The notes below the pieces were generated by a model. It was not told the DNA's origin and made no database searches. It saw nothing but the letters and a program-made list of their open reading frames with translations. Positions 7,320 to 39,409 of a stretch of 64,000 nucleotides of DNA are shown here, one piece after another. This DNA comes from Ectothiorhodospiraceae bacterium (GTDB taxonomy: Bacteria > Pseudomonadota > Gammaproteobacteria > Nitrococcales > Aquisalimonadaceae). The number at the start of each line of letters is the position of its first letter. Position 1 is the first letter of the stretch. The DNA is taken from contig JAFIFU010000007.1 of assembly GCA_020831885.1 (NCBI GenBank), positions 1-64,000 of the forward strand, in the 5' to 3' direction. A program made the translations under genes and the position numbers.

Positions 7320-7520
7320 GGAATGGCCCGCCCTGCGGGGTTTTGCGGCGGGCTCCGGTGTCGGCAGGTGACCGGCTTGCAGCATGCTGCCCAGGCAAAC
7401 GTGAACCCCTTCCCGCCCGGCAAACCGTTTCACGGCGGGCGCCTCCTTGCGTGTGACCCGTTCGAAGCCCCTGTTGCCCCTCCTGTCGCGTGGTCAGGAT
7501 TTTATGAAAGTATCACCTTG

Positions 7521-7535
7521 CGGAATTGAATTTCA
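7521..7535 (+). promoter_or_regulatory. Operator-like site, possibly for an IclR-type regulator
   Basis: The 15-mer CGGAATTGAATTTCA is an imperfect dyad about 76 bp before the acyl-CoA dehydrogenase start. It agrees at 13 of 15 positions with the site at 24816-24830 before the second catabolic operon, and has the spacing and AT core of IclR-type operators. Two IclR genes lie between the operons. Confidence 0.45.
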
Positions 7536-10735: not shown

Positions 10736-10809
10736 CGGGGAAGAGCGAATCCGGTCCGGTGCAGCCGGCCGGGGCAGCGGGGAGTTGCCAGTTGACCGGT
10801 TCTGGTGCG

Positions 10810-10831
10810 TTGTATACATTAGGATACATGT
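10810..10831 (+). promoter_or_regulatory. Possible operator upstream of the Liv transporter
   Basis: The 287-bp gap between the reductase and the binding-protein gene contains TTGTATACATTAGGATACAT, with the perfect 8-mer palindrome TGTATACA. Sequences of this kind serve as operators for FCD-type GntR proteins, and one such regulator lies at 38738. No other gene or clear promoter is seen in the gap. Confidence 0.25.
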
Positions 10832-22668: not shown

Positions 22669-22850
22669 GGAAACGCGAATCCACTCCCATGATGCGCCGC
22701 GGAACCTTGCAGCGTGCCCGGGGGCGGCGGTGCGTCGCGCCGGGCGGACCGGCGTGACGCCCGGATACGGACGTCCGCCGCGGCCGTTCTCCCGGACAGG
22801 GTTGCTCCCGCCCGGGGAACGCCGGGATAATCAGTCTCTTGGATCTGACA

Positions 22851-23660
22851 ATGACGGTGCAAGCCTGGATGGCCAGAAGCAGTGAAGGAAGTGCGGTTTC
22901 CCTGAAGCGCGGACTCGATGTCCTGCGGGCGTTTCAGGCACAGAACGTCACGCTGACCCACAATGAGCTGGTGGCGCGCACCGGCCTGCCCAATTCGACC
23001 CTGGCCCGTTTCACCTACACCCTTACGCGGCTGGGTTATCTGCGCAGGGAAGAGACCACCGGCGGCTACCAGTTGGGCGACAAGGGGGCCCACCCCGGCC
23101 GTGCATTGATGGCCAATCTTCCCGTGCGGAAGGTGGCCGAACCGCTGATGCAGGAGCTTGCGGATCGCTTCAATATCGCCGTAGCCCTTGGCGGGGGCGA
23201 CAGGGATTTCATGGTGTACATCGTCTACTGCCACGGTCGGGACGCCACACCCAGGCGCATGCGGGTGGGCGCCATGGTGCCCATGGCCCGCACCGCCATG
23301 GGGCGGGCCTATCTGTTCGGTTTGCCGCCCGCTCGCCGGGCCTGGCATCTCGGGCAGATCGGCGAGGCGGCCGGTGAAGGGGCGGATGAACAGATCGTCG
23401 GTATCGAGAAGAGTATCCAGGAACTGCGGCAGCATGGGTTCTGTTTTCTGGAGGGTGAGTACCGTCGCGAGATCAGCTCACTGGCGGTTCCGGTGATCGT
23501 CGATCAGGGTGATGTGGTCCTGGCCCTCAACTGTGCCTTCGCCCCCCATTCGCTGTCTGTCGCGCATGTCCGGGAAACGCTGGGTCCGGCGCTGGCCAAT
23601 GTGGCAGGGGAAATCTCCAACCGGATGGCGGAGCTCGGCCTCACCTTCTGGGATGATTAG
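22851..23660 (+). CDS. IclR family transcriptional regulator (first copy)
   Basis: A 269-residue IclR-type regulator from ATG 22851; a TTG 12 bases earlier is in frame. The N-terminal winged helix spans about residues 17-75 (SLKRGLDVLRAF, LVARTGLPNSTLARFTYTL). The C-terminal effector domain follows, with VPMARTAMGRAYL and EISSLAVPVI. The usual ligand-loop cysteine and glycine residues are partly changed, so it may sense a different acid. It is downstream of the first catabolic operon, 182 nt after its last gene, and converges with a second IclR gene. Confidence 0.85.
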   Translation: MTVQAWMARSSEGSAVSLKRGLDVLRAFQAQNVTLTHNELVARTGLPNSTLARFTYTLTRLGYLRREETTGGYQLGDKGAHPGRALMANLPVRKVAEPLMQELADRFNIAVALGGGDRDFMVYIVYCHGRDATPRRMRVGAMVPMARTAMGRAYLFGLPPARRAWHLGQIGEAAGEGADEQIVGIEKSIQELRQHGFCFLEGEYRREISSLAVPVIVDQGDVVLALNCAFAPHSLSVAHVRETLGPALANVAGEISNRMAELGLTFWDD

Positions 23661-23674
23661 GGAATCGTTGAGCG

Positions 23675-24625
23675 TCAGCCGCTGTGTCTGCCGGCATGGT
23701 GACCGGCGGTCTCCCGCTCATCCGTCCTGCCTTCCGCCCGCTGGATTTCCCGTGCGATATCCCGGGCCACCTCCAACAACCGGCGACCGATCACGTCCAT
23801 TTTCCTGCGCGGCAGATGGCGTGCCGGCGCACCGCAGGAAATCGCCCGGACCGGATCACCGGGACCGAGGCGTAACGGGCAGGCGACGCCGTTGATATCC
23901 GTGTGCCAGCCGCCTTCCGATCGGGTGTAGCCGATGCGCTCCACGTGTTCGATGTCCGCCTCGATACCCCGGCGCAGCTCCGTCCAGTGTTTTGAGTGTC
24001 GCCGTTCCAGTTCTTTCATCAGGTAGGCGCGCTCCTTTTCGTCCAGGGCGGCCAGTAACGCATGACCGGTGGCGGTGCCTGCCAGCGGAATACGAGACCC
24101 CGGTTCCAGTCGCAGGGTCATGAGCGTGTTGCTGCTATGGCAGACATCCAGATGCATCACGTCGGTTTGGCTGTAGCCGACGAGGGAGGCGTGCACGCCG
24201 AACTCGTCGGCGATCCGTTGCAGGTATGGGCGGGCGATCTCATTGATGGTCAGTTCGGAACGGGCCCCGTAGCCCAGGCTGAGCACGCCCAGGCCCAGTC
24301 GGTATTTCCGTCGCCGGGAGGAGTAATGCAGATAGCCAAGCGCTGCCAGGGACTGGGCAAGCCGGGATGCTGTCGGCTTGGGGAGGTCCGCCCGGATGCT
24401 TATCTCCGTACTGCCCAGCCAAACGTCGGAAACAGTGTACGCGCTCAGGATACGAAACGCCTTATCGAGTATGGCGAGAAACTGCGGATCCCGACGGCTC
24501 CTGCTCTGATGGGTTCTGGTGATCTCTTCGCTGTCACTCACATTGCGCTCCAGTGGTTCGAGAGCATCCCCAAACCTTGGTCCAGTCATCATGCCGTAGG
24601 CGCCGGCGTGGCGACGGCTGTTCAT
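23675..24625 (-). CDS. IclR family transcriptional regulator (second copy)
   Basis: A 316-residue IclR-type regulator; the first 45 residues are weakly conserved, so an internal start such as the Met at residue 12 is possible. The winged helix is visible as FLAILDKAFRILSAYTVSDV, RADLPKPTASRLAQSLAALG and GYLHYSSRRRKYRLG. The effector domain contains RIPLAGTATGHALLAALDE and VACPLRLGPGDPV. It diverges from the atu-like operon at 24915, and an operator-like 15-mer stands in between. It is the best candidate controller of that operon and, through a matching site at 7521, of the first one. Confidence 0.85.
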   Translation of the reverse strand: MNSRRHAGAYGMMTGPRFGDALEPLERNVSDSEEITRTHQSRSRRDPQFLAILDKAFRILSAYTVSDVWLGSTEISIRADLPKPTASRLAQSLAALGYLHYSSRRRKYRLGLGVLSLGYGARSELTINEIARPYLQRIADEFGVHASLVGYSQTDVMHLDVCHSSNTLMTLRLEPGSRIPLAGTATGHALLAALDEKERAYLMKELERRHSKHWTELRRGIEADIEHVERIGYTRSEGGWHTDINGVACPLRLGPGDPVRAISCGAPARHLPRRKMDVIGRRLLEVARDIAREIQRAEGRTDERETAGHHAGRHSG

Positions 24626-24681: not shown

Positions 24682-24815
24682 TTCACGAGTAGGTTGCTCT
24701 CCGGCCCGCACCCGAATCCCGGTCTGTCTTCCCGTGAAACCCGTTCACCGCCCGCGCCGGGAGCAGGGTGAAGACCGACCTGTTATCACCTATATTACGT
24801 GAAAGGACCACATCG

Positions 24816-24866
24816 CGGAATTAAATTTTAAATTTATTGACAGAAGTTGAGGCTGCCGGATATGGT
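24816..24866 (+). promoter_or_regulatory. Promoter and operator of the atu-like operon
   Basis: A perfect -35 box TTGACA (24837-24842) and a TATGGT -10 box (24861-24866) are 18 bp apart and precede the SDR start by about 50 bp. The site CGGAATTAAATTTTA (24816-24830) is just upstream of the -35 box and matches the site at 7521 at 13 of 15 positions. That position suits an activator or a repressor of the IclR type. Confidence 0.6.
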
Positions 24867-24914: not shown

Positions 24915-25712
24915 ATGAAGGGTTTCGAATCGTTCAACGGCAAGACGGCCATGGTGACCGGTGCCGGTACCGGTCTGGGTCGGGGGTTCGCACTGCGACT
25001 GGCGGAGCTTGGGGCCACGGTTGTCTTGGCGGCCCGACGTGAGGATCGTCTGGAAGCGGTGGCGAAGGAGATCCGGGATGCCGGCGGCAAGGCCCTCGTG
25101 GTTCCGCTGGACATCCGGGACGCCGACGCCGTGGAAGCGGCGGTAGCCCGAATCGTCGACGAGACGGGCCGCCTGGATATTCTCATCAATAACGCGGCCG
25201 GCAACTTCCTGGCCCGTGCGGAAGACATCACCCCGAACGGCTGGACGGCGGTGGTGAACATCGTGCTCAACGGCTCGTTTTTCTGCGCCCGTGCCGCAGG
25301 GCTCCGGATGCTGGAGCAGGGCGGCGGCAAGATCCTTAACGTCACCGCCAGCTACGCCTGGGTCGGTGGACCGAATACCGCACACTCCGCCTCCGCCAAG
25401 GCCGGCCTGATCACCATGGCGAAAACCCTGGCTGTCGAGTGGGGTGGCCGCAATGTGCAGGTTAACTGCCTTTGCCCCGGGTTTATCGATACGGAGCAGT
25501 CGCGGGAAAAGCTCTGGCCCACCGAGGCCGCCCGCAACCATATCCTGGAGCGGGTGCCGGCCGGGCGCTTCGGGACGGTGGAGGAGACCGTGGAGGCAGG
25601 CCTGTTCCTGTGCTCCGACGCTGCCAATTACGTCAACGGTGAGGTGTTTACCATCGATGGCGGTGAATGGCTTAACAAGGGCGCCCTGCAGGCCCCGGAG
25701 AAAGGCGCGTGA
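24915..25712 (+). CDS. SDR oxidoreductase, 2,4-dienoyl-CoA / trans-2-enoyl-CoA reductase-like
   Basis: A 265-residue short-chain dehydrogenase. The coenzyme motif is VTGAGTGLGRG and the structural NNAAG motif is present (INNAAGN). At the active site, the Tyr position of YxxxK is replaced: the sequence reads AHSASAKAGLITMAKTLAVE, with Ser four residues before the Lys. This arrangement and the LAVEWG extension are characteristic of the peroxisomal-type enoyl- and dienoyl-CoA reductase subfamily. It may therefore reduce an unsaturated CoA ester. ATG 24915 follows GAGGGGG. The gene overlaps the next SDR by four bases. Confidence 0.78.
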   Translation: MKGFESFNGKTAMVTGAGTGLGRGFALRLAELGATVVLAARREDRLEAVAKEIRDAGGKALVVPLDIRDADAVEAAVARIVDETGRLDILINNAAGNFLARAEDITPNGWTAVVNIVLNGSFFCARAAGLRMLEQGGGKILNVTASYAWVGGPNTAHSASAKAGLITMAKTLAVEWGGRNVQVNCLCPGFIDTEQSREKLWPTEAARNHILERVPAGRFGTVEETVEAGLFLCSDAANYVNGEVFTIDGGEWLNKGALQAPEKGA

Positions 25713-26449
25713 GCGGCGCGGCGCTGGTCACCGGCGCGAGTCGGAACATCGGCCGGGGGATCGCACTGGCACTGGCACGGGACGGGTATCCAGTGGCGTG
25801 TTTCGGCAGGGATCGGTCCGCGCTGACGGAGACCGCGGACCTGATCGGCGAAGCCGGCGGTACCGCCTCCGTCCACGTGGGCGATGCCTCGTCGGACACG
25901 GACCTGGAGGTGTTCGCCCGGGACGCCGCGGAACGGCACGGAGGCATTGCCGCCGTGGTGAACAACGCCGGTGTGATGCGCGAGGCCCGGGTGGGGGACA
26001 CCACGCCGGATGCCTTCCGTGAGGTCATCAACGTCAACCTGGTAGCGGCATTTGTGCTGGCCCGCGCCGCGTACCCGCATCTGCGGGAGCGTGGCGGCGT
26101 GGTGATCAACATCGGTTCCATGTTTGCCAGCCTGGGTGTGCCCGCCGCCGCTTCCTATTGCGCTTCCAAGGCCGGCATCGAGGGGCTGACCCGTTCCCTG
26201 GCCGCCGAGTGGGGACGAGACGGCATCCGGGTGGTCAATGTGGCTCCCGGGTACGTGCGTAGCGATATCTCCGCCGCCGCGTTGGACGACCCGGCGCTGG
26301 CGAAGCGCATCCTCTCCCGTATTCCCCTCAAGCGGGTCAGCGAGCCCGAGGAAATCGGTGATCTGGTGGCGTTCCTCGCGTCGCCCCGGGCGGGCTTCAT
26401 GACCGGCGAGACGGTGATGATCGACGGCGGGCAGCGCATGCACGTCTAG
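25709..26449 (+). CDS. SDR oxidoreductase, classical type
   Basis: A 246-residue classical short-chain dehydrogenase. The coenzyme motif is VTGASRNIGRG, the NNAG motif is intact, the serine is in INIGSMFAS, and the catalytic YxxxK is canonical (YCASKAG). The C-terminal PGYVRSDI and MTGETVMIDGGQRM are also typical. It would oxidise a hydroxyl or reduce a carbonyl in the CoA pathway. It overlaps the preceding SDR by four bases. The pair resembles AtuB and AtuG of the terpene utilisation cluster, but assignment to one or the other is not safe. Confidence 0.85.
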   Translation: MSGAALVTGASRNIGRGIALALARDGYPVACFGRDRSALTETADLIGEAGGTASVHVGDASSDTDLEVFARDAAERHGGIAAVVNNAGVMREARVGDTTPDAFREVINVNLVAAFVLARAAYPHLRERGGVVINIGSMFASLGVPAAASYCASKAGIEGLTRSLAAEWGRDGIRVVNVAPGYVRSDISAAALDDPALAKRILSRIPLKRVSEPEEIGDLVAFLASPRAGFMTGETVMIDGGQRMHV

Positions 26450-26532
26450 CGTGCGGTATGCCCGGACGCCCCCAGGGCGCCCTGCTGTCCGGGTTGGCGC
26501 GGGACAACGAATAAATCACACCGCGGGAATGG

Positions 26533-28104
26533 ATGGAGGAGGAGATGCTTCTGCGCGACGGTGATAAACGCATTGACCGGGTGTTTCACCTGGCTGCAAA
26601 GGATTCCGCTGACCGGGTGCATCTGTTGCTCCCGGACGGCACGGCGGTGAGCTACGCGGAGACCTACGACCGGGTCCGGCGCCTGGCCACCGTGCTGCGG
26701 GACGGGGGCGTCATGCCCGGTGACCGGGTTGCCGCGATGCACCGGAACGCGCGTGAGCTGGTGGAGTTCTTCATCGCCTGCGGCCTGTGCGGCGCCATCG
26801 GCGTGGCCATCAACACCCTGGGTACCCGCCGGGAGGTTGCCACATTGATGGCGGACTGCACCCCGGCCGCGCTCATCGCCAGCGGCGAGTTTTTGCCGGT
26901 ACTCCAGGATGACCTGATGCCGGAGTCGATGCGACTCCGGCTGGTCACCGACACCGCGCCGCCCCATGGCTGGAGGTCCTATGCCGAGGCGGTTGCGATG
27001 GCGGAGCGTCTGGACGACGCGCCGGGACGGGATCCGGAAGAAGCGGCGCTGATGATATACAGCTCCGGCACCACGGGCCGCCCGAAAGGCATTCTTCTCT
27101 CCCACCGAGCCTTGGTGGAGAACGCGATTCGCACCGCCGAGGTGCTGGGTTACCGTGCCGACGACCGGTTTCTGACCCTGCTGCCGCTGTTCAGCAGCTT
27201 CGGCTTTGCCTTCGATCTGCTGCAGGCGGCACTGAGCCGTGCATCCACCGTGCTGATGGACCGTTTTGACGAGAAAGTCGCCGTGGACCTGCTGGAGCGC
27301 CACCGGGTTACCTTCCTGGCGGGGGTGCCCACCATGTTCGCCCGGATGTTCGACACCGCCAACCTCAAGGGGCGCGACATCAGCAGCCTGCGGCTCATCG
27401 ACGTGGGCGGCGGACCGGTGTCCCTCAAGCTCAAGACCATGCTCCGCCAGGAGCTGGGGGTCGGTGTGGTGGAGAGTTACGGGCTGACGGAAATATCCCC
27501 GGTGGCCAGCGTCCAGCGGGATCCGTACAGCGCCACCACCAGTTCCTGCGGCGAGCCGCTGCCCGGGTTTCGGGTGCGTGCGGTCGACCTGGACGGCAAG
27601 GAACTGCCCCGTGGGGAGCCAGGGGAGCTGGTGTTCCAGTCCAACACTTTCATGCTCGGCTACTGGAATCAGCCTGAGGAGACGGCGCGTTCGCTCCGGG
27701 ACGGCTGGCTTTACACCGGCGATGTGGGCCGTGTGGATGCGAACGGCGAGATCCACATCCTGGACCGCACCAAGGACATGATCGTCAGCAACGGGTTCAA
27801 CGTGTACCCGAAGGAAGTGGAAAACGTGATCGCCGAGCTGCCGGAAGTGGAATCGGTGGCGGTGGTGGGCAAGCCGGACGAGATTCGCGGCGAGGTGGTG
27901 CACGCCTTCGTGGTGCCACGCGTCGGGAGGGAGCTGAACGAGGAGCAGGTGTTGACCTACTGCCGGGAAAACCTGGCCCGCTTCAAGACCCCATGGGGTG
28001 TCAGCTTTCTGGAGCAACTGCCGCTGACCGGGTCCGGAAAAATCCAGCGGTATCGGCTGCGGCAGATGCTTCTGGAGAATGATCAGGAGCAACAAGCGCA
28101 ATGA
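26533..28104 (+). CDS. Acyl-CoA synthetase (AMP-dependent, class I adenylate-forming)
   Basis: A 523-residue adenylate-forming ligase. The P-loop is [11 protein letters not shown] (residues 176-186), followed by [12 protein letters not shown], the hinge region [12 protein letters not shown] and [20 protein letters not shown]. The C-terminal lysine of motif A10 is Lys503 in TGSGKIQR. It activates a carboxylic acid to its CoA thioester and would commit the substrate to the pathway. An ATG at 26545 sits only two bases past a GAGGAGG stretch, so either ATG may be used. It overlaps the dehydrogenase start by four bases. In the atu cluster, AtuH has this role. Confidence 0.9.
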
Positions 28105-29255
28105 ACAAGTATCAGTTGACCGAGGAGCAGCAGGCGTTCCACGAGGCCGTGAAGCGCTTCGCCGATGACCGGATCGCCCCCCTGGCGGCCGAGATTGACC
28201 GTACCGCCGAATTCCCCACAGCGCTGTTCCGGGAGATGGCCGAACTGGGGTACCTGGGCGCCCCGCACCCCGAGGCGTACGAGGGGACCGGCTGCGATGC
28301 GGTGATGGTCTGCCTGTTACTGGAAGAGGTTTCCCGGGCGTCCGGTGCCGTTGGCAGCTCCCTGAACGCACATATCAGCCTGGCTTCCTCGGTGATCGCC
28401 GAGCACGGCAGCGAGGCGCAGAAGGACAAGTACCTGCGCGACCTGGCCAGTGGCCGCAAGCTGGGCGCCTTCGGGCTGACCGAGCCCAGTGGCGGTTCCG
28501 ATGCCGCCGGCTGCCGTTCGCGGGCCGTGCGCCAGGGGGATCATTTCGTGCTGAACGGTTCCAAGGCGTTCATCACCAACAGCACGGAGGCGGATACCTT
28601 CGTGGTCACCGCCCGCACCAGCGACGAGCCCGGCTCCCGGGGTGTGTCCGCCTTCATCCTGGAGCGCGGCATGGACGGCCTCAGCGTCGGTCCGGCCGAC
28701 AAGAAGATGGGCATGAACGGCTCTCCCACCGCCATGGTGTTCTTCGACAATGTCCGGGTGCCCGCGGAAAACCTGATTGGCGAGGAGGGGCGGGGTTTTC
28801 GCCAGTTCGCCCAGACCCTGGACCGGGGGCGGATCAATGTGGCGGCGCTATCCGTGGGCCTCGCTCAGGCCGCCCTGGATGCCGCCGTTCCTTATGCGAA
28901 GGAGCGGGTTCAGTTCGGCCGCCCCATCGCCGCCTTCCAAGGGGTGCAATGGCCCATCGCGGAAATGGCGGCGGAGATCGAGGCGGCGCGGCTGCTGACC
29001 CTGAACGCCGCGCGTATGCACGACGCCGGCCTGCCGGTGAAGGCCGAGGGGGCCATGGCGAAGTTCATGGCGGCCGAGATCTCCATTCGCGCTGCAAACC
29101 ACGCCGTGGAGCTGCACGGTGGCTACGGCTATCTCCGGGATTTCCCGGTGGAGCGCATCCTGCGGGACGCCAAGATGTATCAGATTGGCGAGGGTACCAG
29201 CCAGATCCAGCGCATGGTCATCGCGCGGGAGTTGCTGGGGCGTTACGAGGACTGA
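28101..29255 (+). CDS. Acyl-CoA dehydrogenase (second copy, AtuD-like position)
   Basis: A 384-residue FAD enzyme. It contains [34 protein letters not shown], and the C-terminal [20 protein letters not shown] with [18 protein letters not shown]. The glutamate in GEGT is in the position of the catalytic base of the short- and branched-chain class. It would form the alpha-beta double bond that the downstream carboxylase needs. It is coupled by ATGA to the ligase. It occupies the place held by citronellyl-CoA dehydrogenase AtuD in the atu cluster. Confidence 0.88.
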
Positions 29256-29262
29256 GGGCACG

Positions 29263-30036
29263 ATGATGGCGGAACAAGAAATCCTGGTGGAAAAAACGGG
29301 CCCGGTGGCGCGCATCGTGCTCAACCGGCCGGAGAAGCGGAATGCACAGGGCGTGACCTTCAGCGCCAGCATGCTGCGTGCCCTGGATGCGGTGGAGCAG
29401 GATCCGGATGTGCATGTCGTGGTCCTGGCCGCCAACGGACCGGTGTTCGGTGGTGGTGGGGATCTCGCCGAGATCATGAGCACCGAACGCACGGACCGGG
29501 AATGGGAGTTCGAGCTGATCCGCGGCTACAACAAGGTGGTGGCGCGGATCGCCAGTCTGGATCGCCCGATCATCGCGGCGGTCAACGGACCTGCCTATGG
29601 CGGCGGCGTCTGCCTGGCGCTGGCCTGTGACTTTGCCGTGGCCGGCGAGTCGGCAGGTTACCACTTCGCGTTCGCCCGCATCGGCCTCTCGGCGGCGGAC
29701 ATGGGGGCGCCAACACTCCTGCAGCGTGCCCTGGGCAGCAACCTGGCCGCGTACTATCTGCTCACCGGCGGCACCATCGACGCCACCCGGGGGCGGGAAC
29801 TCGGGCTGTTCGCGGATGTGGTGCCGGACGTGGATCTGGTCGGGCGGGTGGATGAGATCGCCCGGAATATCGCCGCCCAGTCCCGGCGCGGCACGACCAT
29901 CACGAAGCTTGCGTTGCGTCTCGGTGCCGAAACGGGGTTTGAGACCAGCCTGGAGTACGAGGCCTATCTCCAGAGCTTTGCGTTTCGAACGGATGAGCAC
30001 AAGCGCCGTTTGGGACGTTTTCTCAAGAAGGACTGA
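29263..30036 (+). CDS. Enoyl-CoA hydratase family protein (AtuE-like position)
   Basis: A 257-residue crotonase-fold enzyme from ATG 29263; the longer open frame upstream is a shadow of the acyl-CoA dehydrogenase. Present are RIVLNRPEKRNAQGVTF, the oxyanion loop FGGGGDLAEI, IIAAVNGPAYGGGVCLALAC and the active-site region FARIGLSAADMGAPTLL. It would hydrate the carboxylated enoyl-CoA, as AtuE does with isohexenylglutaconyl-CoA or as methylglutaconyl-CoA hydratase does in leucine breakdown. It starts 7 nt after the dehydrogenase stop. Confidence 0.85.
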   Translation: MMAEQEILVEKTGPVARIVLNRPEKRNAQGVTFSASMLRALDAVEQDPDVHVVVLAANGPVFGGGGDLAEIMSTERTDREWEFELIRGYNKVVARIASLDRPIIAAVNGPAYGGGVCLALACDFAVAGESAGYHFAFARIGLSAADMGAPTLLQRALGSNLAAYYLLTGGTIDATRGRELGLFADVVPDVDLVGRVDEIARNIAAQSRRGTTITKLALRLGAETGFETSLEYEAYLQSFAFRTDEHKRRLGRFLKKD

Positions 30037-30087
30037 ATCACGCCTCCGTGCGCGCGATTGCCAAGCCTAACGATACAGGTGAAAGCC

Positions 30088-31455
30088 ATGAAAGATGCTC
30101 TCCGAATAGGTGCAGGGTCCGGATTCTGGGGGGATGCCCTGGATCCGGCGGAAGAACTGCTGAAGGGAGGTGAACTGGACTATATGTCCATGGATTACCT
30201 GGCGGAGCTCACCATGGCCCTGCTGCAGCGGCAAAAACTCAAGAATCCGGAGGCAGGCTACATTCCGGACATCGTGCCGCACCTGCGCACCCTGATGCCT
30301 CTGGCCCGGGAGCACGGGACCCGGCTGATCTGCAACGGGGGTGGGGTCAACCCTCGTGCCGGCGCCAGGCGGGTGGCGGAGACGGCCGCCGAGCAGGGGC
30401 TCAAGGGCACCCGGGTCGCCTTGGTGGAGGGTGACGACGTCCTGCACCGGCTGGACGAGCTCCTGGCCAGCGGGGAGACCCTGGCAAACATGGAGACCGG
30501 TGATGAGGACTTCGCCGCTATCCGTGACCGTGTGGTGGCCGCCAACGTCTACACGGACGCCAGCGGTATCGCCGGTGCGCTGGCCGAGGAGGCGGACGTG
30601 GTGATCGCCGGTCGCGTCTCCGACAACGCCCTGTACGTTGGGCCGATCATGCACGAGCTGGGCTGGCGCTACGACGCCGCCCACGCGGACCGGGTCGGGG
30701 CCGCCATCACCATCGGTCACGTGATGGAATGCGCTGCCGCCTGTACCGGCGGCATGTCGTCGCGCTTCGCCGAGATGCCACGCATGGGTGAGGTGGGCTT
30801 TCCCATCGCCGAGGTGGCGGCAGATGGTTCCGCAGTGATCTCCAAGCTGCCGGGAACCGGCGGTCGGGTGGATGCCCACACCATCAAGGAGCACCTGGTC
30901 TACGAGATCGCCGACCCGGGGAACTACATCATGCCGGACGGCATCGCCGATTTCACCACCCTGCGCCTGACCGATCTGGGGGATGACCGCGTGCGAATGG
31001 ACAACATGACCGGCAAGGGGCAACCCGACCGGCTCAAGCTCATTGTCGGCTATCAGGACGGCTGGATCGGCGAGGGCTTGTTGTTCTTCCCCTGGCCGTA
31101 CGCCCTGGAGCGGGCCCACAAGGCCCGGGAGACGCTGGGTGAGCGCTTCCGGCGTCTGGGTCTTCAGGCGGAGCAGATCCACTTCGACCTGGTGGGCATC
31201 AACGCCTTACACGGGCCGTCCGCCCCCATCCCCGAGCACGACGACCTCAACGAGGTGGGTCTGCGGGTGGCCGTGCGCACCCGCACCCGCGAGGAGGCGG
31301 AGAAGGTGCGGCGGGCGTGTTCCCAGCTCTGGATCATGGGGCCCGGTGGCACGTCCTTCGGCACGCCAATGAAACCCCGGCCCGTGGTCTCGGTGTGGCC
31401 GACGCTGATTCCGCGCGCCGCCGTCAGCCAGTCCGTCGACATCCTGGAGGCCTGA
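30088..31455 (+). CDS. atuA: AtuA-family protein (DUF1446), main domain
   Basis: A 455-residue protein of the AtuA/DUF1446 family, which is essential for acyclic terpene use in pseudomonads but has no agreed reaction. It starts at ATG 30088 (MKDALRIGAGSGFWGD), preceded by AGGTGA. Recognisable family segments are GGELDYMSMDYLAELTMALL, LICNGGGVNPRAGAR, TDASGIAGALAEEADVVIAG and GHVMECAAACTGG. In Pseudomonas the protein continues with a C-terminal ferredoxin-like domain. Here that part is a separate gene that begins 2 nt later. It lies in an operon with ligase, dehydrogenase, hydratase and carboxylase genes. Confidence 0.85.
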   Translation: MKDALRIGAGSGFWGDALDPAEELLKGGELDYMSMDYLAELTMALLQRQKLKNPEAGYIPDIVPHLRTLMPLAREHGTRLICNGGGVNPRAGARRVAETAAEQGLKGTRVALVEGDDVLHRLDELLASGETLANMETGDEDFAAIRDRVVAANVYTDASGIAGALAEEADVVIAGRVSDNALYVGPIMHELGWRYDAAHADRVGAAITIGHVMECAAACTGGMSSRFAEMPRMGEVGFPIAEVAADGSAVISKLPGTGGRVDAHTIKEHLVYEIADPGNYIMPDGIADFTTLRLTDLGDDRVRMDNMTGKGQPDRLKLIVGYQDGWIGEGLLFFPWPYALERAHKARETLGERFRRLGLQAEQIHFDLVGINALHGPSAPIPEHDDLNEVGLRVAVRTRTREEAEKVRRACSQLWIMGPGGTSFGTPMKPRPVVSVWPTLIPRAAVSQSVDILEA

Positions 31456-31457
31456 TC

Positions 31458-31775
31458 ATGACCGCACTGCTGCGAGACATCGCTTACGTCCGCTCCGGGG
31501 ATAAGGGCAACACGCTCACCATCGGCGTCATAGCCCGGGAGCCCGAGCATTACGCCACCGTTCTCAGAACCGTGACGCCGGACCGCGTCAAGGCACTGTT
31601 CGGGGATTGGGTCCACGGTCCGGTGCATGTTTATCCCATGGACAATATCGAGGCGGTGGTGGTGTACATGGAGAACGCCCTGGGTGGTGGCGCCACCAGC
31701 ACCCTGCGTCTTGACCAGACCGGCAAATCCATCGGCAACGCCATCCTGCGCCTGAGACTGCCGGGAGACGTCTGA
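31458..31775 (+). CDS. AtuA C-terminal-like small protein
   Basis: A 105-residue protein from ATG 31458. It contains LRDIAYVRSGDKGNTLTIGV and ends in LDQTGKSIGNAILRLRLPGD, patterns found at the C-terminus of full-length AtuA proteins. It is separated from the main AtuA domain by a stop and 2 bases, and its own stop overlaps the next ATG by one base. Together the two genes match the length of one AtuA, so they probably form a complex. No catalytic residue can be assigned. Confidence 0.8.
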   Translation: MTALLRDIAYVRSGDKGNTLTIGVIAREPEHYATVLRTVTPDRVKALFGDWVHGPVHVYPMDNIEAVVVYMENALGGGATSTLRLDQTGKSIGNAILRLRLPGDV

Positions 31776-33379
31776 TGGCCGTACTGCAGTCCCGTGTTGA
31801 TGTGGGCGGCGAGGCCTTCCGGGCCAATGCCGAGGCGTACGGGCGCATGCGGGCGGAGATCGCCGCAGCGCGGGACATGGCCGTGACCGGCGGCGGAGAC
31901 CGTGCGCGGGAGGTTCACGCCTCCCGGGGCAAAATGATGCCCCGGGAACGGATTTCCGCCCTGTTGGACATGGGTACCCCGTTTCTGGAAATCGGCCAGC
32001 TCGGCGGCCACGGCCTGTACGATGACGACATCCCCAGCGGCGGCATCATCACCGGCGTGGGCGTCGTGTCCGGCCGCGCCTGCGTGGTGGTGGCCAACGA
32101 TGCCACCGTCAAGGGCGGTACCTACTACCCCATCACCATCCGCAAGCACATCCGTGCCCAGCAGGTGGCCCGGGAGAACGGGCTGCCCTGCATCTATCTG
32201 GTGGACTCCGGTGGCGCCTTTCTGCCCCTGCAGGAGGATATCTTCCCGGACGAGCATCACTTCGGCCGGATTTTCCGGAATATCGCCGAAATGTCCGCCA
32301 TGGCTCTGCCGCAGATCGCGGTTGTGATGGGCTCGTGCACGGCGGGCGGTGCGTATATCCCGGCAATGTGCGACGAGACCATCATCGTCAAGGATAACGG
32401 CACGATTTTCCTGGGTGGCCCGCAACTGGTGAAGGCCGCCACCGGCGTCGAGGTGGACGCCCAGACCTTGGGCGGTGCCGACGTGCATACCCGTGACAGC
32501 GCGGTGGCTGATCATTACGCCGTGGACGAACGCCACGCGCTGTCCCTGGTACGCGAGATTGTCGCCCGGGAGCCCGGTGCGGCACCTGTCGGTCCGCCGC
32601 TCCTGCCGGAAGACCCGCTGTACGATCCCGCCGAACTTCCGGGCATCATCAGCGCCAACCCGCGTGAGCCCATTCCCGCCCGGGAGATCCTGGCGCGGCT
32701 GCTGGATGGCAGCCGGCTGACGGAATACCGGGAGCGCTGGGGCAACACCATCATCTGCGGTACCGGCGCCATCGGCGGATTTCCGGTGGGTGTGCTGATC
32801 AACGATGGTGTGCTGTTTGCCGAGAGCGCCCAGAAGGCCGCGAACTTCATTGAGATCTGCTGCCAGCGGGACATCCCGCTCCTGTTCCTGCACAACATCA
32901 GCGGTTTCATGGTGGGCCAGGAGTACGAGGCGGGCGGAATCGCCCGCCATGGAGCCAAGATGGTCAGCGCCGTCTCCTGTGCCCGGGTGCCCAAATACAG
33001 TCTGCTGATCGGTGGCAGTTATGGTGCCGGGAACTTCGCCATGTGTGGCCGCGCCTTCGGGCCGCGGCTGATGGGTATGTGGCCTAATGCCCGCACTGCG
33101 GTCATGGGTGGCGAGCAGGCCGCAACCGTGCTTTCGCTGGTGCGGGAGTCCCAACTCGCCAAACAGGGCAAGCCTTTTTCCAGTGAGGAGGTGGAGGCCT
33201 TCAAGCAGCCCATCCGGAATACCTATGAACGGAGCAGCCATCCGCTCAACGCTGCCGCCAACATGTGGGTGGACGCCGTGGTGGATCCGGAGGATACCCG
33301 GGCCTGGCTGGCACTGGCACTTGCCCTGGCGGCGGGTTCGCCGAAGGACGACACGCGCTTCGGCGTGTTCAGGATGTAA
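31775..33379 (+). CDS. Biotin-dependent acyl-CoA carboxylase, carboxyltransferase (beta) subunit, atuC-like
   Basis: A 534-residue carboxyltransferase with N- and C-terminal crotonase-like halves. Visible are MPRERISALLDMGTPFLEIG, CIYLVDSGGAFLPLQEDIFP, MGSCTAGGAYIPAMCDE, and in the second half LFLHNISGFMVGQEYEAGG and SYGAGNFAMCGRAFGPR with MWPNARTAVMGGEQAA. These features match geranyl-CoA and 3-methylcrotonyl-CoA carboxylases. It transfers CO2 from biotin to the gamma carbon of a 3-methyl-2-enoyl-CoA. The neighbouring AtuA genes favour the geranyl-CoA type, but leucine-type activity cannot be excluded. Confidence 0.87.
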   Translation: MAVLQSRVDVGGEAFRANAEAYGRMRAEIAAARDMAVTGGGDRAREVHASRGKMMPRERISALLDMGTPFLEIGQLGGHGLYDDDIPSGGIITGVGVVSGRACVVVANDATVKGGTYYPITIRKHIRAQQVARENGLPCIYLVDSGGAFLPLQEDIFPDEHHFGRIFRNIAEMSAMALPQIAVVMGSCTAGGAYIPAMCDETIIVKDNGTIFLGGPQLVKAATGVEVDAQTLGGADVHTRDSAVADHYAVDERHALSLVREIVAREPGAAPVGPPLLPEDPLYDPAELPGIISANPREPIPAREILARLLDGSRLTEYRERWGNTIICGTGAIGGFPVGVLINDGVLFAESAQKAANFIEICCQRDIPLLFLHNISGFMVGQEYEAGGIARHGAKMVSAVSCARVPKYSLLIGGSYGAGNFAMCGRAFGPRLMGMWPNARTAVMGGEQAATVLSLVRESQLAKQGKPFSSEEVEAFKQPIRNTYERSSHPLNAAANMWVDAVVDPEDTRAWLALALALAAGSPKDDTRFGVFRM

Positions 33380-33382
33380 ACC

Positions 33383-35365
33383 ATGCGGCTATTCCGTCGA
33401 ATTCTGATTGCGAATCGGGGCGAGATCGCTGTTCGCATCGCCCGTACCTGCCGCCGCCTGGGGGTGGAGTACGTGGCCATCTATTCCGAGGTGGACGCCG
33501 GGGCACCGCATCTGGATGGGGCCGTAAGGACCGTTTGTGTCGGCCCCGGGGCCGCCGCCGAAAGCTACCTGGACGTGGAGCGCGTTGTCCGCGCGGGGGT
33601 GGAAACGGGCTGTGAGGCGGTGCATCCCGGCTACGGTTTCCTGTCCGAGAATCCACGTTTCGCCCGGGCCGTGGCCGAGGCGGGGATGACCTTCATCGGC
33701 CCGTCCCCGGAGACCATCCAGGCCATGGGTGACAAAGCCACCGCCAAGGCTCTGATGGCCGAGGCCGGTGTCCCCGTGGTGCCTGGCACAAGCGAGGCGG
33801 ACGAGGACCCGGAGCGGATTGCCTCGGCGGCGGAACGGGTGGGCTTCCCCGTCCTCCTGAAGCCCGTGGCGGGGGGTGGCGGCAAAGGGATGAGCGTCGT
33901 GGAGCGGATGGCGGATCTGCCTGACGCCGTCGCCGCCGCCGTGCGGGTGGCTCGGACCAGCTTTGGCGATGGCCGGTTGCTGGTGGAGCGTTTCGTGCAG
34001 CGGCCCAGACATATCGAGATCCAGGTGTTCGGGGACGCCCACGGCAACGTCGTGCACCTGTTCGAGCGGGAATGCTCCTTGCAGCGGCGTCACCAGAAGA
34101 TCGTCGAGGAAGCGCCCGCCGTGGATCTGCCTGAAGATGTCCGTGCGGCCATGCGCGAGGCGGCCGTGGCCGGCGCGCGTGCCATCGGCTACCGCAACGC
34201 CGGCACCTTCGAGTTCATTCTTTCCGAGGAAGGGGAGTTTTATTTCCTGGAAGTGAATACCCGCCTCCAAGTGGAGCACCCGGTCACTGAGATGGTGGTC
34301 GGCGTGGACCTGGTGGAATGGCAGCTTCGGGTGGCCTGCGGGGAACCTCTGCCGCTGGCCCAGGAGGCGTTGCGGGTTCAGGGGCATGCAGTGGAGTGCC
34401 GCGTCTACGCGGAGGACGCGGAACAGGGTTTTCGACCTGCGCCGGGCCGGGTGCTGGCCTTGCGCTGGCCCGAGGGCATCCGCGTGGATGCGGGCATCCG
34501 CGCCGGCGGCGAGGTCACCGCGTTCTACGATCCCATGGTGGCCAAGCTTATTGCCCATGACGTGGATCGCACCGCCGCCCTGGCGCGCATGCACGACGCC
34601 TTGGGGGAAACGGCGCTGCTGGGCCTTACCACCAACCTGGGTTTCCTATCCGACCTGCTTGCCCATCCGGCTGTCCTCCAGGGGCAGATCCATACGGGTT
34701 TCGTGGATGCCCACCTGGATGCGCTTGTTCATGGACAGCCCCGGGAGGCCATGGCCGTGGCCTGTGCCGCGGCCGTGAACCTGGTGGAGGCTGCCGGGCA
34801 TATGGATGACCGCAGCCCCTGGTGTGGCGTTGTCGGCAGCCACGACCGCCGTCACCTGGAGCAGACGGCGCCTTACGGCCGCTGCGCGGTCCGCATCCAC
34901 GAGGATTGGCGGGACGCCCGTGTGGTGGAATGGCACGCCGGTTGCGCGACCGTGGATGTGGATGGTGACCGGTTCAGGGTTGAACCAGGAGAAGCGGAAC
35001 GAGGCGACCTGCTCGGGGGGTGCCTGGATAATGGCAGGCGCTGGTTTGCCAGGCGCCACGGCGATGCTCTGGAAATGCAGATCCATGGCGGCCGTTTTCG
35101 TCTGCTCACCGGCGCGGCCGCCGAGGCCGTCGAGGTGGGCGATGGCGGCGCGCTGTCACCCCTGCCCGGGCTTGTGGCGGCGGTTCGGGTGACCGAAGGG
35201 GATCAGGTGGCCAAGGGTGACCCGCTGGTGATCATCGAGGCCATGAAGATGGAGAACACGGTGGTGGCGCCGGTGGATGGTGTCGTCGCCGAGGTGCGGG
35301 TCCGCACCGGAGACCAGGTGGACAGCAACCAGCTTCTGGTGCAGGTTGCCAGCAGTGACACCTGA
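33383..35365 (+). CDS. Biotin-dependent acyl-CoA carboxylase, biotin carboxylase (alpha) subunit, atuF-like
   Basis: A 660-residue subunit. The biotin carboxylase part (1-445) starts with FRRILIANRGEIAVRIARTC and has the ATP-grasp stretches PVAGGGGKGMSVVERM and FLEVNTRLQVEHPVTE. The C-terminal biotinyl domain carries EAMKMEN, with biotinyl-Lys622. It charges biotin with bicarbonate and ATP, then hands it to the carboxyltransferase encoded 3 nt upstream. The architecture and length fit geranyl-CoA and methylcrotonyl-CoA carboxylases. It is the last carboxylase gene of the atu-like operon. Confidence 0.9.
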   Translation: MRLFRRILIANRGEIAVRIARTCRRLGVEYVAIYSEVDAGAPHLDGAVRTVCVGPGAAAESYLDVERVVRAGVETGCEAVHPGYGFLSENPRFARAVAEAGMTFIGPSPETIQAMGDKATAKALMAEAGVPVVPGTSEADEDPERIASAAERVGFPVLLKPVAGGGGKGMSVVERMADLPDAVAAAVRVARTSFGDGRLLVERFVQRPRHIEIQVFGDAHGNVVHLFERECSLQRRHQKIVEEAPAVDLPEDVRAAMREAAVAGARAIGYRNAGTFEFILSEEGEFYFLEVNTRLQVEHPVTEMVVGVDLVEWQLRVACGEPLPLAQEALRVQGHAVECRVYAEDAEQGFRPAPGRVLALRWPEGIRVDAGIRAGGEVTAFYDPMVAKLIAHDVDRTAALARMHDALGETALLGLTTNLGFLSDLLAHPAVLQGQIHTGFVDAHLDALVHGQPREAMAVACAAAVNLVEAAGHMDDRSPWCGVVGSHDRRHLEQTAPYGRCAVRIHEDWRDARVVEWHAGCATVDVDGDRFRVEPGEAERGDLLGGCLDNGRRWFARRHGDALEMQIHGGRFRLLTGAAAEAVEVGDGGALSPLPGLVAAVRVTEGDQVAKGDPLVIIEAMKMENTVVAPVDGVVAEVRVRTGDQVDSNQLLVQVASSDT

Positions 35366-35396
35366 CCAATTGACAGACCAAGACAGGATTTCAACC

Positions 35397-36584
35397 ATGC
35401 AGGGTTCCGGATCCAGCCTCTCCTCGGCGCTGACGCTACGTTCCGTCACGCTCAAGAACCGCCTGGCCGTCTCGCCCATGTGCCAGTATTCGGCCACCGA
35501 CGGCGTCGCGGATGACTACCATCTGGTGCACCTGGGCCGGTTCGCTCTTGGCGGCGCCGGGCTGGTGTTCGTGGAAGCCACGGCCGTGGTGCCCGAGGGG
35601 CGGATCACCCATGGTGATCTGGGGTTGTGGCGTGATGACCAGATACCGGGGCTCAGGCGCATCGCCGGGTTTCTGAGCGCGCACGGCGCGGTGCCGGCCA
35701 TCCAGCTCGCCCATGCAGGCCGCAAGGCCAGCATGCAGCGCCCCTGGAACGGTAATGGTCCTCTCAACGATGACGATGTGCGACGCGGCGATCGGCCCTG
35801 GGAGATCGTGGGACCCAGTCCCGTGCCGGTGGACGAGGGCTGGCTCGTTCCCCGTGAGATGACGCCCGGTGACATGGCCGCGCTGAGGGATGCCTGGTGC
35901 CAGGCGGCCCGACGCGCGCTTGATGCCGGTTTCCAGGTGCTGGAGGTCCATGCGGCGCACGGGTACCTGCTGCACAGCTTTCTCTCGCCCCTCAGCAACC
36001 GGCGTACCGATGCCTACGGCGGCGATCTGGAGAGCCGCTGCCGCTTCCCGCTGGAGGTGGTGGAAGCGGTGCGCGCCGTCTGGCCGGAGGACAAGCCCCT
36101 GTTCGTCCGGGTGTCCGCCGTGGACGGCATGGAGGGTGGCTGGGAACTGGATGATACGGTGTACCTGGCGCGCAGGCTCAAGGCGCTGGGCGTGGATGTG
36201 GTGGATTGCTCCTCCGGCGGGCTGGCGGGCTCCGCCACGGCGGCGCGGGTGCGCCGCGGCCCCGGGTTCCAGGTGCCGTTCGCCGCGCGGGTCCGGGAGG
36301 ACGCGGATATGGCCACCATGGCCGTGGGTCTGATCCTGACGCCCCGGCAGGCGGAAGAGGTGGTGCGTGGCGGCCAGGCGGACATCGTTGCCATTGGCCG
36401 GGAGGCCCTGTTCAACCCCAACTGGCCGGTCCATGCGCTGGGGGAGCTGGATGAGAAATCCGGTTTCGAGCCCTGGCCGGTGCAGTCGGGTTGGTGGCTG
36501 GAAAATCGCGACCGGGCGTTGACCCGGCTGGGCATCCGGCAGACGCCCGTCTCCAGCCTCTGGGATATTGAAGGTGTGGACTAG
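35397..36584 (+). CDS. NADH:flavin oxidoreductase, YqjM-type old-yellow enzyme
   Basis: A 395-residue FMN TIM-barrel enzyme from ATG 35397. The thermophilic-like/YqjM class is indicated by Cys29 (SPMCQYSA), AIQLAHAGRKAS (101-112), His185 and His188 (VHAAHGYLLHSFLSPLSNRR), and the C-terminal IGREALFNPNWP. It reduces activated C=C bonds such as enones of terpenoids or xenobiotics. The first old-yellow enzyme (8771) has an extra FeS/Rossmann half, so the two are not redundant by design. It follows the carboxylase after 31 nt. Its stop codon joins a repeat core. Confidence 0.85.
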   Translation: MQGSGSSLSSALTLRSVTLKNRLAVSPMCQYSATDGVADDYHLVHLGRFALGGAGLVFVEATAVVPEGRITHGDLGLWRDDQIPGLRRIAGFLSAHGAVPAIQLAHAGRKASMQRPWNGNGPLNDDDVRRGDRPWEIVGPSPVPVDEGWLVPREMTPGDMAALRDAWCQAARRALDAGFQVLEVHAAHGYLLHSFLSPLSNRRTDAYGGDLESRCRFPLEVVEAVRAVWPEDKPLFVRVSAVDGMEGGWELDDTVYLARRLKALGVDVVDCSSGGLAGSATAARVRRGPGFQVPFAARVREDADMATMAVGLILTPRQAEEVVRGGQADIVAIGREALFNPNWPVHALGELDEKSGFEPWPVQSGWWLENRDRALTRLGIRQTPVSSLWDIEGVD

Positions 36585-36617: not shown

Positions 36618-37520
36618 TCAGATCAATGCGATCGGTCGGACCGGGCTGCCCGTGGCGCCGGCGAAGCGGGCGGGCAGCATGATGAAGCAGAAGGGTGTCG
36701 TTACCGAAGCCGTCAGTCCGTCCAGTGCCAGATTCTCGATCAGATACACACCGCGGTCCACCAGGGCGTGCTGGTGGACGGGCATGGACACCTCGCGGTC
36801 GACGCCGGGCAGTACCTCCACGGCCATGTTGTCCGAGCCGATCGCGTACACGCCCTGGCCCGTCAGCCACTGCGCCGCGTCCAGGTCGATACCCGGCTCG
36901 CCCGCGGTGTAGCGGGCATTGTCGCGCATATAGTGGCGGCTCCAGCCGGTGCGGATCAGGACCGTATCGCCGGGTTGGATGGTGATTTCCTGCTGGTTCA
37001 GCGTCTGCTGCAGATCATCCGCGCTGACAGCACGTCCCGCCTCCAGGTGATCACCGCCGTCAAGCCCCGCGACATCAATGCAGATGCCCCGGGTGATCAG
37101 GCTGGGGACGTGTTCCACCCCCAGCCGGCGTAATCCCTGGTTGCCCACGATCTCCGCGGCGCTGTGGCCGCCGTACATACGGTCTCCCACCGAGAAGTGA
37201 CCCAGTGCGTCCACGTGCGTGCCCACGTGAAAGGTCATGTGCACATGTTCCAGGTTCACGCCGGGATCGTTGCGGACCCCCTGACCGCGCACCGCCCGGA
37301 TAACCCGGTCGGCGGTGCTCCAGAAGCTCATCAGAAAGGGCGGCTGAATGCGCTCCCAGAAAGGTGCGCCGGCCTTGATGGGGTGGTCCAGCTCGAACAG
37401 CCGGCCCTCGCGAATCAGGGACAGGGCGGCCAGTCGCGATGCGTTCGTTTGACCGCCACCGGCGCCGATCTGGTCACCGGGGGCGGGCGGAAAATGCACG
37501 GCGGGATCGTCTGCCATCAC
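36618..37520 (-). CDS. Cyclase-family hydrolase (PF04199, kynurenine formamidase-like), first copy
   Basis: A 300-residue protein of the metal-dependent cyclase/kynurenine formamidase family. The metal-site motif is FHVGTHVDALGHF, with His98, His102, Asp104 and His108. A second conserved block is GDTVLIRTGWSRHYM, and the C-terminus ends in the family segment ATGSPVRPIALI. Members hydrolyse amides, lactones or cyclic diketones. Its stop is 34 nt from that of the old-yellow enzyme (convergent). The DUF169 gene lies 2 nt upstream on the same strand. It may open a ring in the pathway encoded nearby. Confidence 0.8.
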   Translation of the reverse strand: MMADDPAVHFPPAPGDQIGAGGGQTNASRLAALSLIREGRLFELDHPIKAGAPFWERIQPPFLMSFWSTADRVIRAVRGQGVRNDPGVNLEHVHMTFHVGTHVDALGHFSVGDRMYGGHSAAEIVGNQGLRRLGVEHVPSLITRGICIDVAGLDGGDHLEAGRAVSADDLQQTLNQQEITIQPGDTVLIRTGWSRHYMRDNARYTAGEPGIDLDAAQWLTGQGVYAIGSDNMAVEVLPGVDREVSMPVHQHALVDRGVYLIENLALDGLTASVTTPFCFIMLPARFAGATGSPVRPIALI

Positions 37521-37522
37521 CC

Positions 37523-38317
37523 TTAGCTGTTGCCGTAACTGGCGGCCAGGCCCTCGGCCGGGTCGGCGCTGGCGCTGAACGGTGAAATGGGGTAACGCAG
37601 CCCCGCCTTGTAAAGGCCTTCCAAGCCCTCCACCCCCCGGGCCAGTTCCTCCGGTGGCAGGGCCATGAGCAGTTCGTCATCGGCAACACCGCCGTAGCGC
37701 CGCTCAGCGTAGCAAGGGATTGACAGGCTGGTTTCCCGGGTGGCCAGCGCCCGACCCCAGGAATCGGCGCAGGCACTTTCCCCGGTGATGGTGAAATCGT
37801 AGCGCCGATAGGTTTTCCATTGCAGGCCGTTGATGAACAGGATCATCTGGCCCGGTGTGGCGTAGAACAGGCAGATGTCGGGTGGATCCAGGCGACCCAT
37901 GCGCAGTGGCGAGACGGCCAGCCCCTGATAGCGGCCGGCTGGAACCCGTGGCATCTGTTCCTGATGCTTTTTCGATGCCTCCAGGTTTTCGAACCAGACG
38001 CGGTGGAACTTGCGTCCGGACAGGTAATCCTCGCCAGGGGCGTTGAGGCCCACCACGCCGCCGCAGTTGGAGTTGGGCAGGACGTTCTCGTGCTGGATCC
38101 CCAGGGTCAGCCCGGCCATGCGGGCCTGGGTGACGAGCTGGCAGGTGGAGTGGCGGCGTCCCTCCTTTGGGTGCCGCAAGCCAGGAACCTGCGCCATCTG
38201 CTCCAGGTCCTCGAACAATTTCATGCCGATCGGCAAGGTCCGCAGGCGCAACAGCTCGGTGAGTCGCCCGGACAGGCGTTTCAACTCGGCAGCATCGACT
38301 CCACTTTGATCAGTCAT
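37523..38317 (-). CDS. DUF169 family protein
   Basis: A 264-residue protein of the DUF169 family from the Met at 38317, six bases after a GGGAG ribosome binding site; two earlier in-frame ATGs are less well placed. The family pattern is LRLRTLPIGMKLFEDLEQM, an invariant-looking CQLVTQAR segment, and NCGGVVGLN, with a later ESACADSWGRAL. Several conserved cysteines suggest metal or cofactor binding. The function is not known. It is the upstream partner of the cyclase-family gene, with only 2 nt between them. Confidence 0.72.
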   Translation of the reverse strand: MTDQSGVDAAELKRLSGRLTELLRLRTLPIGMKLFEDLEQMAQVPGLRHPKEGRRHSTCQLVTQARMAGLTLGIQHENVLPNSNCGGVVGLNAPGEDYLSGRKFHRVWFENLEASKKHQEQMPRVPAGRYQGLAVSPLRMGRLDPPDICLFYATPGQMILFINGLQWKTYRRYDFTITGESACADSWGRALATRETSLSIPCYAERRYGGVADDELLMALPPEELARGVEGLEGLYKAGLRYPISPFSASADPAEGLAASYGNS

Positions 38318-38737
38318 GCACATCTCCCGACATTTTCGCTCGTGCGAGCCCGGTGTCATTGACCGGGTGATTCCGCCTCATCCCCGGAGCAGGCTCAGTC
38401 CATTATCCGGAGTTTATCAGCCGGATATATACTATGAAATAGTGTTCTGCAATGTGATACATCTTCCTTGCTAGGACACGGCGCTCCTGCCTGCGGTCGG
38501 AGGGGATTTGCCGAAGCGGACCGCGCCGGAGGTGCACAGCAATCGAACATGCTTCGCATGGTAAAATTCCCGCTTTGATTCCGTGGGGCGTGACCCGGCA
38601 GTGCTGAGCCGGTGAAACTGACGGAGTGCATCGCGATTTCCTGCGCGGTCGGCCTGCCCGGACGATACGGCTGGGAGAAGCGCCACAGAGGGTCATGTGC
38701 AACCGTGACAGCAACAGTAGGCAGCGGAGAGACCGGG
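38318..38737. other. Intergenic region between DUF169 and GntR genes
   Basis: This 420-bp stretch separates two divergent transcripts. No convincing gene is seen. It is AT-richer near 38400-38470, where ACTATGAAATAGT (38431-38443) makes a short dyad next to TATATACTATG. The dyad could belong to a promoter or operator for the GntR protein. The remainder is GC-rich without repeats that I can recognise. Confidence 0.4.
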
Positions 38738-39409
38738 GTGAGTTCTGGCTCGAGAAAGACATCACGGGCGCAGTGGGTTTACGATGCGCTGCGCGCCGCT
38801 ATTGGTGAGGGCAGGTTCCGCAGTGGCGAACGTATCCTTGAAGAAGAGGTGGCCCGTTCGCTTGGCGTCAGTCGGACCCCGGTTCGTGCCGCGCTCTCGC
38901 GCCTCCAGTCCCAGGGGCTTCTGGAGCTGGCTCCAGGAGGGCTGGTCGTTGCCCGGCTGAGTCGCCCCCAGGTGTTGGAGCTTTATGCCATGCGGGAGAT
39001 CCTCGAGGGGTCCGCCGCCCGTTTTGCGGCGCAGCATGCATCCCCGTCCGAAATCGCGAGTCTGTATACGCTGGCGGATGCCTTTTCCCGATCCATGGGT
39101 GATCCGGACCGGCTTGCCCGTATCAACCGGGAGTTCCACGGCGCCATCTATGAGGCCGCGCATAACCGTTACCTGTTGCGTACCCTGAGTGAGCTGCAGG
39201 ATGCGCTGACCCTGTTGCCGGGCACCACATTCACGGTCAATGGCAGGCCCGAAGCGTCGGTCATGGAGCACGGGAGCATCGTTGCCGCCATTGAAGGCCG
39301 CGATCCCGACGCCGCCGAGCGCGCCGCCCGGCATCACATCCGCAAGGCGCAGGAGGCGCGATTGGAAATGATGATATTCTCTCCAGGGGGGGTGGCGATC
39401 GACGAGTAG
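38738..39409 (+). CDS. GntR family regulator, FCD subfamily
   Basis: A 223-residue GntR/FadR-type regulator from the GTG at 38738, preceded by GGAGAG; the upstream open frame has no conserved residues. The winged helix reads VYDALRAAIGEGRFRSGERI, LEEEVARSLGVSRTPVRAAL and LSRLQSQGLLELAPGGLVV. The FCD helical domain holds the metal-site pattern ALEM-like start YAMREILEGSAARFAA, then NREFHGAIYEAAHN and a histidine in ERAARHHIRKA. It precedes the second cyclase-family gene by 104 nt and probably controls the local cyclase/DUF169 genes. Confidence 0.85.
   Translation: MSSGSRKTSRAQWVYDALRAAIGEGRFRSGERILEEEVARSLGVSRTPVRAALSRLQSQGLLELAPGGLVVARLSRPQVLELYAMREILEGSAARFAAQHASPSEIASLYTLADAFSRSMGDPDRLARINREFHGAIYEAAHNRYLLRTLSELQDALTLLPGTTFTVNGRPEASVMEHGSIVAAIEGRDPDAAERAARHHIRKAQEARLEMMIFSPGGVAIDE

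Follow-up and report, generated by a model that had tools for sequence, protein, structure and literature searches.

The operators of IclR-family regulators have been surveyed across 32 orthologous groups (Suvorova and Gelfand 2021, PMC8222616). As set out in the main text of that survey, group 1 has WTTYCRYW3RYGRAAW as one of its consensus variants, and group 2 follows TGRAACAN1-2TGTTYCA; three-box sites combine group 1 with group 2, as in PcaU, which requires the third box (PMC8222616). Here, we describe a stretch of 64,000 nucleotides (the window) from an Ectothiorhodospiraceae bacterium, in which three predicted sites of this kind precede three sets of genes. From sequence comparison, we consider it very likely that these sites are the operators of one local regulon under the IclR-family regulator or regulators encoded between the operons.

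The original prediction had singled out two 15-mers, CGGAATTGAATTTCA at 7521-7535 and CGGAATTAAATTTTA at 24816-24830, as agreeing at 13 of 15 positions and lying 70-90 bp before the first genes of two operons. Both statements hold at these coordinates: two positions differ, and the sites end 75 bp 5' of the ATG of ACAD1 (7611) and 84 bp 5' of the ATG of SDR1 (24915). The perfect TTGACA said to lie directly 3' of the second site is present at 24837-24842. Alignment of the upstream regions gave a full site of 25 bp with three boxes, NNYCA-N5-CGGAA-N5-TTYYA, of which the 15-mers are the right two thirds, and matches with one mismatch revealed a third copy in the window. The sites and the genes that they precede are as follows.

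7511-7535, plus strand: operator 1 (predicted), TATCA-CCTTG-CGGAA-TTGAA-TTTCA, upstream of ACAD1
7611-8771, plus strand: ACAD1, acyl-CoA dehydrogenase, first gene of operon 1
8768-10735, plus strand: OYE1, OYE/FadH-type oxidoreductase
24806-24830, plus strand: operator 2 (predicted), GACCA-CATCG-CGGAA-TTAAA-TTTTA, upstream of SDR1
24837-24866, plus strand: predicted sigma-70 promoter of the SDR1 operon, TTGACA-18-TATGGT (10/12), with TATGGT at 24861-24866
24915-25712, plus strand: SDR1, short-chain dehydrogenase, first gene of operon 2; the nearest model is 2,4-dienoyl-CoA reductase
25709-36584, plus strand: rest of operon 2, with SDR2, acyl-CoA ligase, ACAD2, enoyl-CoA hydratase, AtuA family, a small ORF, carboxyltransferase, biotin carboxylase and OYE2
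36618-38359, minus strand: third target, a DUF169 protein (37523-38359) and a putative cyclase (36618-37520)
38435-38459, minus strand: operator 3 (predicted), TATCA-CATTG-CAGAA-CACTA-TTTCA, upstream of the DUF169-cyclase pair

Box 3 (TTYYA) stands 5 bp 3' of CGGAA or CAGAA in all three window sites; it alternates in direction and pairs with box 2 as in group 2, which makes these three-box sites. Counted by hand, boxes 1 and 2 agree with the group 1 pattern TTYCRYW3RYGRAA at 12/15 (24806), 13/15 (7511) and 13/15 (38435) positions. In operon 1, a livKHMGF-like transporter begins 284 bp after OYE1 and is followed by further catabolic genes; the motif scan found no site at livK in the window. A palindrome-like element, TTGTATACATTAGGATACATG, lies upstream of the livK-like gene at 10809-10830; it is the only TTGTATACAW site within the window and possibly serves a GntR-type regulator. 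Operator 3 is situated in the intergenic region between the DUF169-cyclase pair and a divergent GntR/FCD regulator gene (38612-39409), and a second cyclase gene is found at 39514-40563.

The cluster was also found in betaproteobacteria, most closely in two MAGs, G144 (locus L065) and G206, whose SDR1 proteins are each 75% identical to that of the window. In both, the SDR1 operon, IclRb, IclRa and ECH1 run leftward in this order, followed by a divergent ACAD1-OYE1-OYE2 set and, farther on, the liv set. The 25-bp site recurs upstream of the orthologous acyl-CoA dehydrogenase operon, the SDR operon and the liv genes, in each case with box 3 at the same distance from CGGAA, and the orthologous IclR genes accompany it; the motif scan found no site at DUF169 in either genome. 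The sites in G144 are the following.

Upstream of SDR1: GTCCA-TTGTG-CGGAA-CGCAA-TTCCA
Upstream of ACAD1: TACCA-CTGTG-CGGAA-CCTTT-TTTCA
Upstream of liv: GTCCA-CAGTG-CGGAA-CGTGA-TTTTA, about 690 bp from livK (L176 7882-8597)

When G144 is compared with G206, the 25-mers agree at 25/25, 24/25 and 22/25 positions, against 196/242 (81%), 142/162 (88%) and 277/392 (71%) outside them. These two genomes count as roughly one independent lineage, since they are close relatives with IclR proteins that are 94% identical. Computation established where the sites lie, how they are built, that they recur at orthologous promoters and that IclR genes are linked to them.

Two IclR-family genes, rather than one, lie between the operons.

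22839-23660, plus strand: IclRa, the second IclR-family regulator
23675-24625, minus strand: IclRb, IclR-family regulator and favoured binder; the start codon is uncertain

They adjoin each other and the operons in the window, in G144 and in G206. Both match IclR-family models far below the cut-offs of named subfamilies and equivalogs; the best model for both is TIGR02431 (PcaR/PcaU/PobR), and they are not members of that subfamily because they score 118 and 92 bits against a cut-off of 284.75. The IclR gene at 23675 had been put forward as the likely binder. An IclR-type binder fits the three-box motif and the local genes, and to this extent the proposal is supported; the adjacent IclR genes, however, number two. 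Judged from motif and gene context, one or both of the adjacent IclR proteins very probably bind the sites.

More distant clusters occur in G145 (L066) and G211, with SDR1 identities of 65%, and in Cupriavidus sp. U2 (G146, L067; 63%). In G145, ACAD1 and SDR1 diverge from one intergenic region; the gene arrangement in G144, G206 and G145 therefore links operons 1 and 2 through neighbourhood alone. G145, G211 and G146 carry IclR pairs about 29-36% identical to the window pair, and the motif scan found no strong CGGAA site at their corresponding promoters. The promoters of SDR1, ACAD1, AtuA and ECH1 in these genomes instead share TTYCA-N15-TTYCR, in which the outer boxes have the same 20-bp spacing as in the window. 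This pattern has 12 matches in four loci, against shuffle means of 0.09-0.41 per locus, and nine of them are the following.

L177: 6180 (ACAD1) and 6349 (SDR1)
L181: 5864 (AtuA) and 5998 (ECH1/IclR side)
L190: 6913 (ECH1), 7027 (SDR1) and 1546 (upstream of a TcuA-like gene)
L179: 3373 (SDR1) and 14402 (AtuA)

Given the diverged IclR pairs and the altered boxes, the site seems to have diverged in step with its regulator, with the regulon maintained. Closer to the window genome, no SDR1 orthologue was found at E 1e-60 in 58 relatives of the same genus, family, order or class, and the short motif was absent from the 13 further genomes that belong to its genus or family; within genus and family, relatives without the genes are also without the motif. 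Over 144 relatives, the short pattern, which is blind to diverged versions, gave scattered matches in distant genomes. Candidate IclRb orthologues in same-order relatives reached at most 41% identity and were taken as paralogues. A plasmid search returned only SDRs of Streptomyces at about 52%, and a sample of 398 genomes from the family of Cupriavidus U2 contained no further cluster. Set beside the lack of an SDR1 orthologue in the sampled genomes of the same genus and family, the presence of the cluster on a Cupriavidus plasmid contig and in betaproteobacterial MAGs suggests horizontal transfer.

Similar sites could in principle arise by chance, where upstream DNA is AT-rich and the genome as a whole GC-rich, and the 15-mer pair alone is weak evidence: with three mismatches allowed, 28 of 100 shuffled versions of the window had at least two matches, so that the 15-mer by itself is not significant there. 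However, GC-rich boxes (CCA, GCGGAA) are among the conserved letters, and the boxes keep their register. Statistical support for the shared sites comes from a PWM built from the six G144/G206 sites only (three promoters each) and applied to about 128,000 window positions. It ranked 24806, 38435 and 7511 first, second and third, with 19.9, 19.7 and 16.0 bits and a fourth score of 11.9; the test is not fully blind, because the window motif guided the locating of the G144 sites. None of 300 dinucleotide shuffles had a third-best score as high as 16.0 (maximum 12.2), and 16 of them reached that value with their best single score. The genome-wide scans used patterns rather than the PWM. Within one mismatch of GCGGAATTNAATTTNA, only the two 15-mer sites occur in the 4.13-Mb genome, and exact matches to YCAYNNNGCGGAANNNNNTTYYA number two in this genome, three in G144 and two in G206, all within this cluster. 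We thus regard chance similarity as highly improbable. Equally improbable is binding by another regulator such as the GntR/FCD protein (38612-39409): although its gene is divergent from operator 3, the architecture of the motif is that of IclR sites, and a first-pass tblastn at E cut-offs of 1e-8 and 1e-5 found no GntR homologue in the site-carrying regions of G144 and G206. A more serious alternative, which we nevertheless hold to be less likely, is that the operators and the single regulon are real and are bound by IclRa or an IclRa/IclRb hetero-oligomer rather than by IclRb alone. The window, G144 and G206 all retain IclRa and IclRb side by side, and in G145, G211 and G146, too, a pair of IclR genes is found near or with cluster genes. 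Against this, IclRb is better conserved than IclRa (56-57% versus 44-45%), and all three genomes (window, G144 and G206) share its recognition-helix stretch LPKPTASRL, whereas the corresponding stretch of IclRa varies (LPNSTLARF versus LPKATVARL). On these sequence features IclRb is favoured as the binder. Our literature search found no paper on paired IclR regulators.

The direction of control can be argued both ways. Read by eye, the distance from the C of CGGAA to the start of a -35-like hexamer (TTGACG, TTGCGC, TTGGCC or TTGGTC) is 22 nt at the G144/G206 sites, and to the -35 hexamer of the window SDR1 promoter it is 21 nt; at operators 1 and 3 the placement of the boxes is less clear-cut. 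Activation appears the somewhat likelier mode at the window SDR1 promoter and the three G144/G206 promoters because the boxes lie immediately 5' of the -35 hexamer, where an activator would be expected. A repressor reading, in which IclR would keep the promoters shut and be released by a pathway intermediate, is possible though less favoured. Repression is common among IclR proteins, and the SDR1 sites of G145 and G211 overlap or follow the predicted -10 region by our reading; on the other side stand the boxes that end 6-7 bp 5' of the -35 hexamer at the window SDR1 promoter and the three G144/G206 promoters. The activator layout varies between operators, since the promoter search found no consensus sigma-70 promoter beside operator 1. 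A weak TTGCGG-17-TAGCAT would place operator 1 within the promoter, an arrangement that suits a repressor, and repression is possible at that operator.

In the activation mechanism that we propose, an IclR dimer or tetramer would bind an operator whose three half-sites, each of 5 bp, alternate in orientation at intervals of one helical turn (10 bp). This oligomer would most likely be formed by IclRb, perhaps with IclRa as a second component. With a pathway intermediate as its ligand, it would recruit RNA polymerase in a PcaU-like manner from just upstream of the -35 hexamer at SDR1; binder, activation and inducer are what we infer here. It is a speculative and rather improbable extension that the two differing adjacent IclR proteins act jointly on the three-box operator, for example as a hetero-oligomer, and that, between relatives, the regulon moved from an activator layout, with boxes 5' of the -35, to a repressor layout, with boxes covering the -10, as the pair diverged, with the 20-bp outer spacing kept.

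That the two operons form one regulon, as originally predicted, is borne out by a motif conserved upstream of the orthologues of both in genomes that keep the genes and the regulators. A search for the motif at homologous operons had been named as the means of refutation; the sites proved to be conserved in genomes with both the genes and the regulators, and absent from relatives of the same genus and family in which the genes are absent. With the same 25-bp site at all three gene sets and in distant bacteria, the genes are probably under one local switch, and the regulon is predicted to extend to a third operon, DUF169-cyclase. The ligase/dehydrogenase/AtuA/carboxylase, acyl-CoA dehydrogenase/OYE and DUF169-cyclase operons would then constitute one predicted pathway with one inducer. 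Such predicted co-regulation narrows the substrate search and gives context to uncharacterised genes.

Among the regulons discussed in the main text of PMC8222616, none comprises SDR1, ACAD1, AtuA and a carboxylase, and our literature search found no paper that connects IclR and AtuA with a cluster of this kind. Another related operator is the E. coli IclR box TGGAAATNATTTCCA, which follows the GGAA-N5-TTYC(A) plan of boxes 2 and 3 (CGGAATTGAATTTCA) and agrees at 10 of 14 defined positions; unlike the sites described here, it has two boxes only and serves other genes (glyoxylate bypass). With up to two mismatches, TTYCRYWWWRYGRAA-N5-TTYC has 28 matches in this genome compared with three for a reversed control, and 7511 and 38435 are among them at two mismatches. 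Four matches are perfect (L225, L226, L227 and L228, on contigs C72, C82, C110 and C114 of the window genome, G000), two of which adjoin paralogous IclR genes. Taken together, the consensus match, the third box and the genome-wide association with IclR make IclR-type control well founded. The perfect match on C110 separates a paralogous IclR gene from an acyl-CoA ligase gene that diverges from it; the match on C82 is flanked by genes for an IclR protein and an acyl-CoA ligase, and the one on C72 closely precedes an acyl-CoA dehydrogenase gene. A similar site, TCAAAAAGCGGAACGTATTTCCA, precedes another IclR gene of Cupriavidus sp. U2 by about 80 bp (L222, G146 C20 398538-398560).

The sites of PcaU, PobR and HmgR are likewise three-box IclR-family sites; their half-sites are GTTCG-like or similar, whereas that of the window is CGGAA. 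With the three-box operators described in the main text of PMC8222616, the window sites share three alternating half-sites, an adjacent IclR gene and catabolic operons, and boxes 2 and 3 fit group 2 of the GRAA-N5-TTYC type; the left box is a degenerate NNYCA instead of the TTYCR of the published three-box class. As a clean three-box case, the locus could be used to test the proposed alternative IclR dimerisation and the role of paired IclR genes. The type of switch is already known, and the regulon described here is a fresh example of three-box IclR control.
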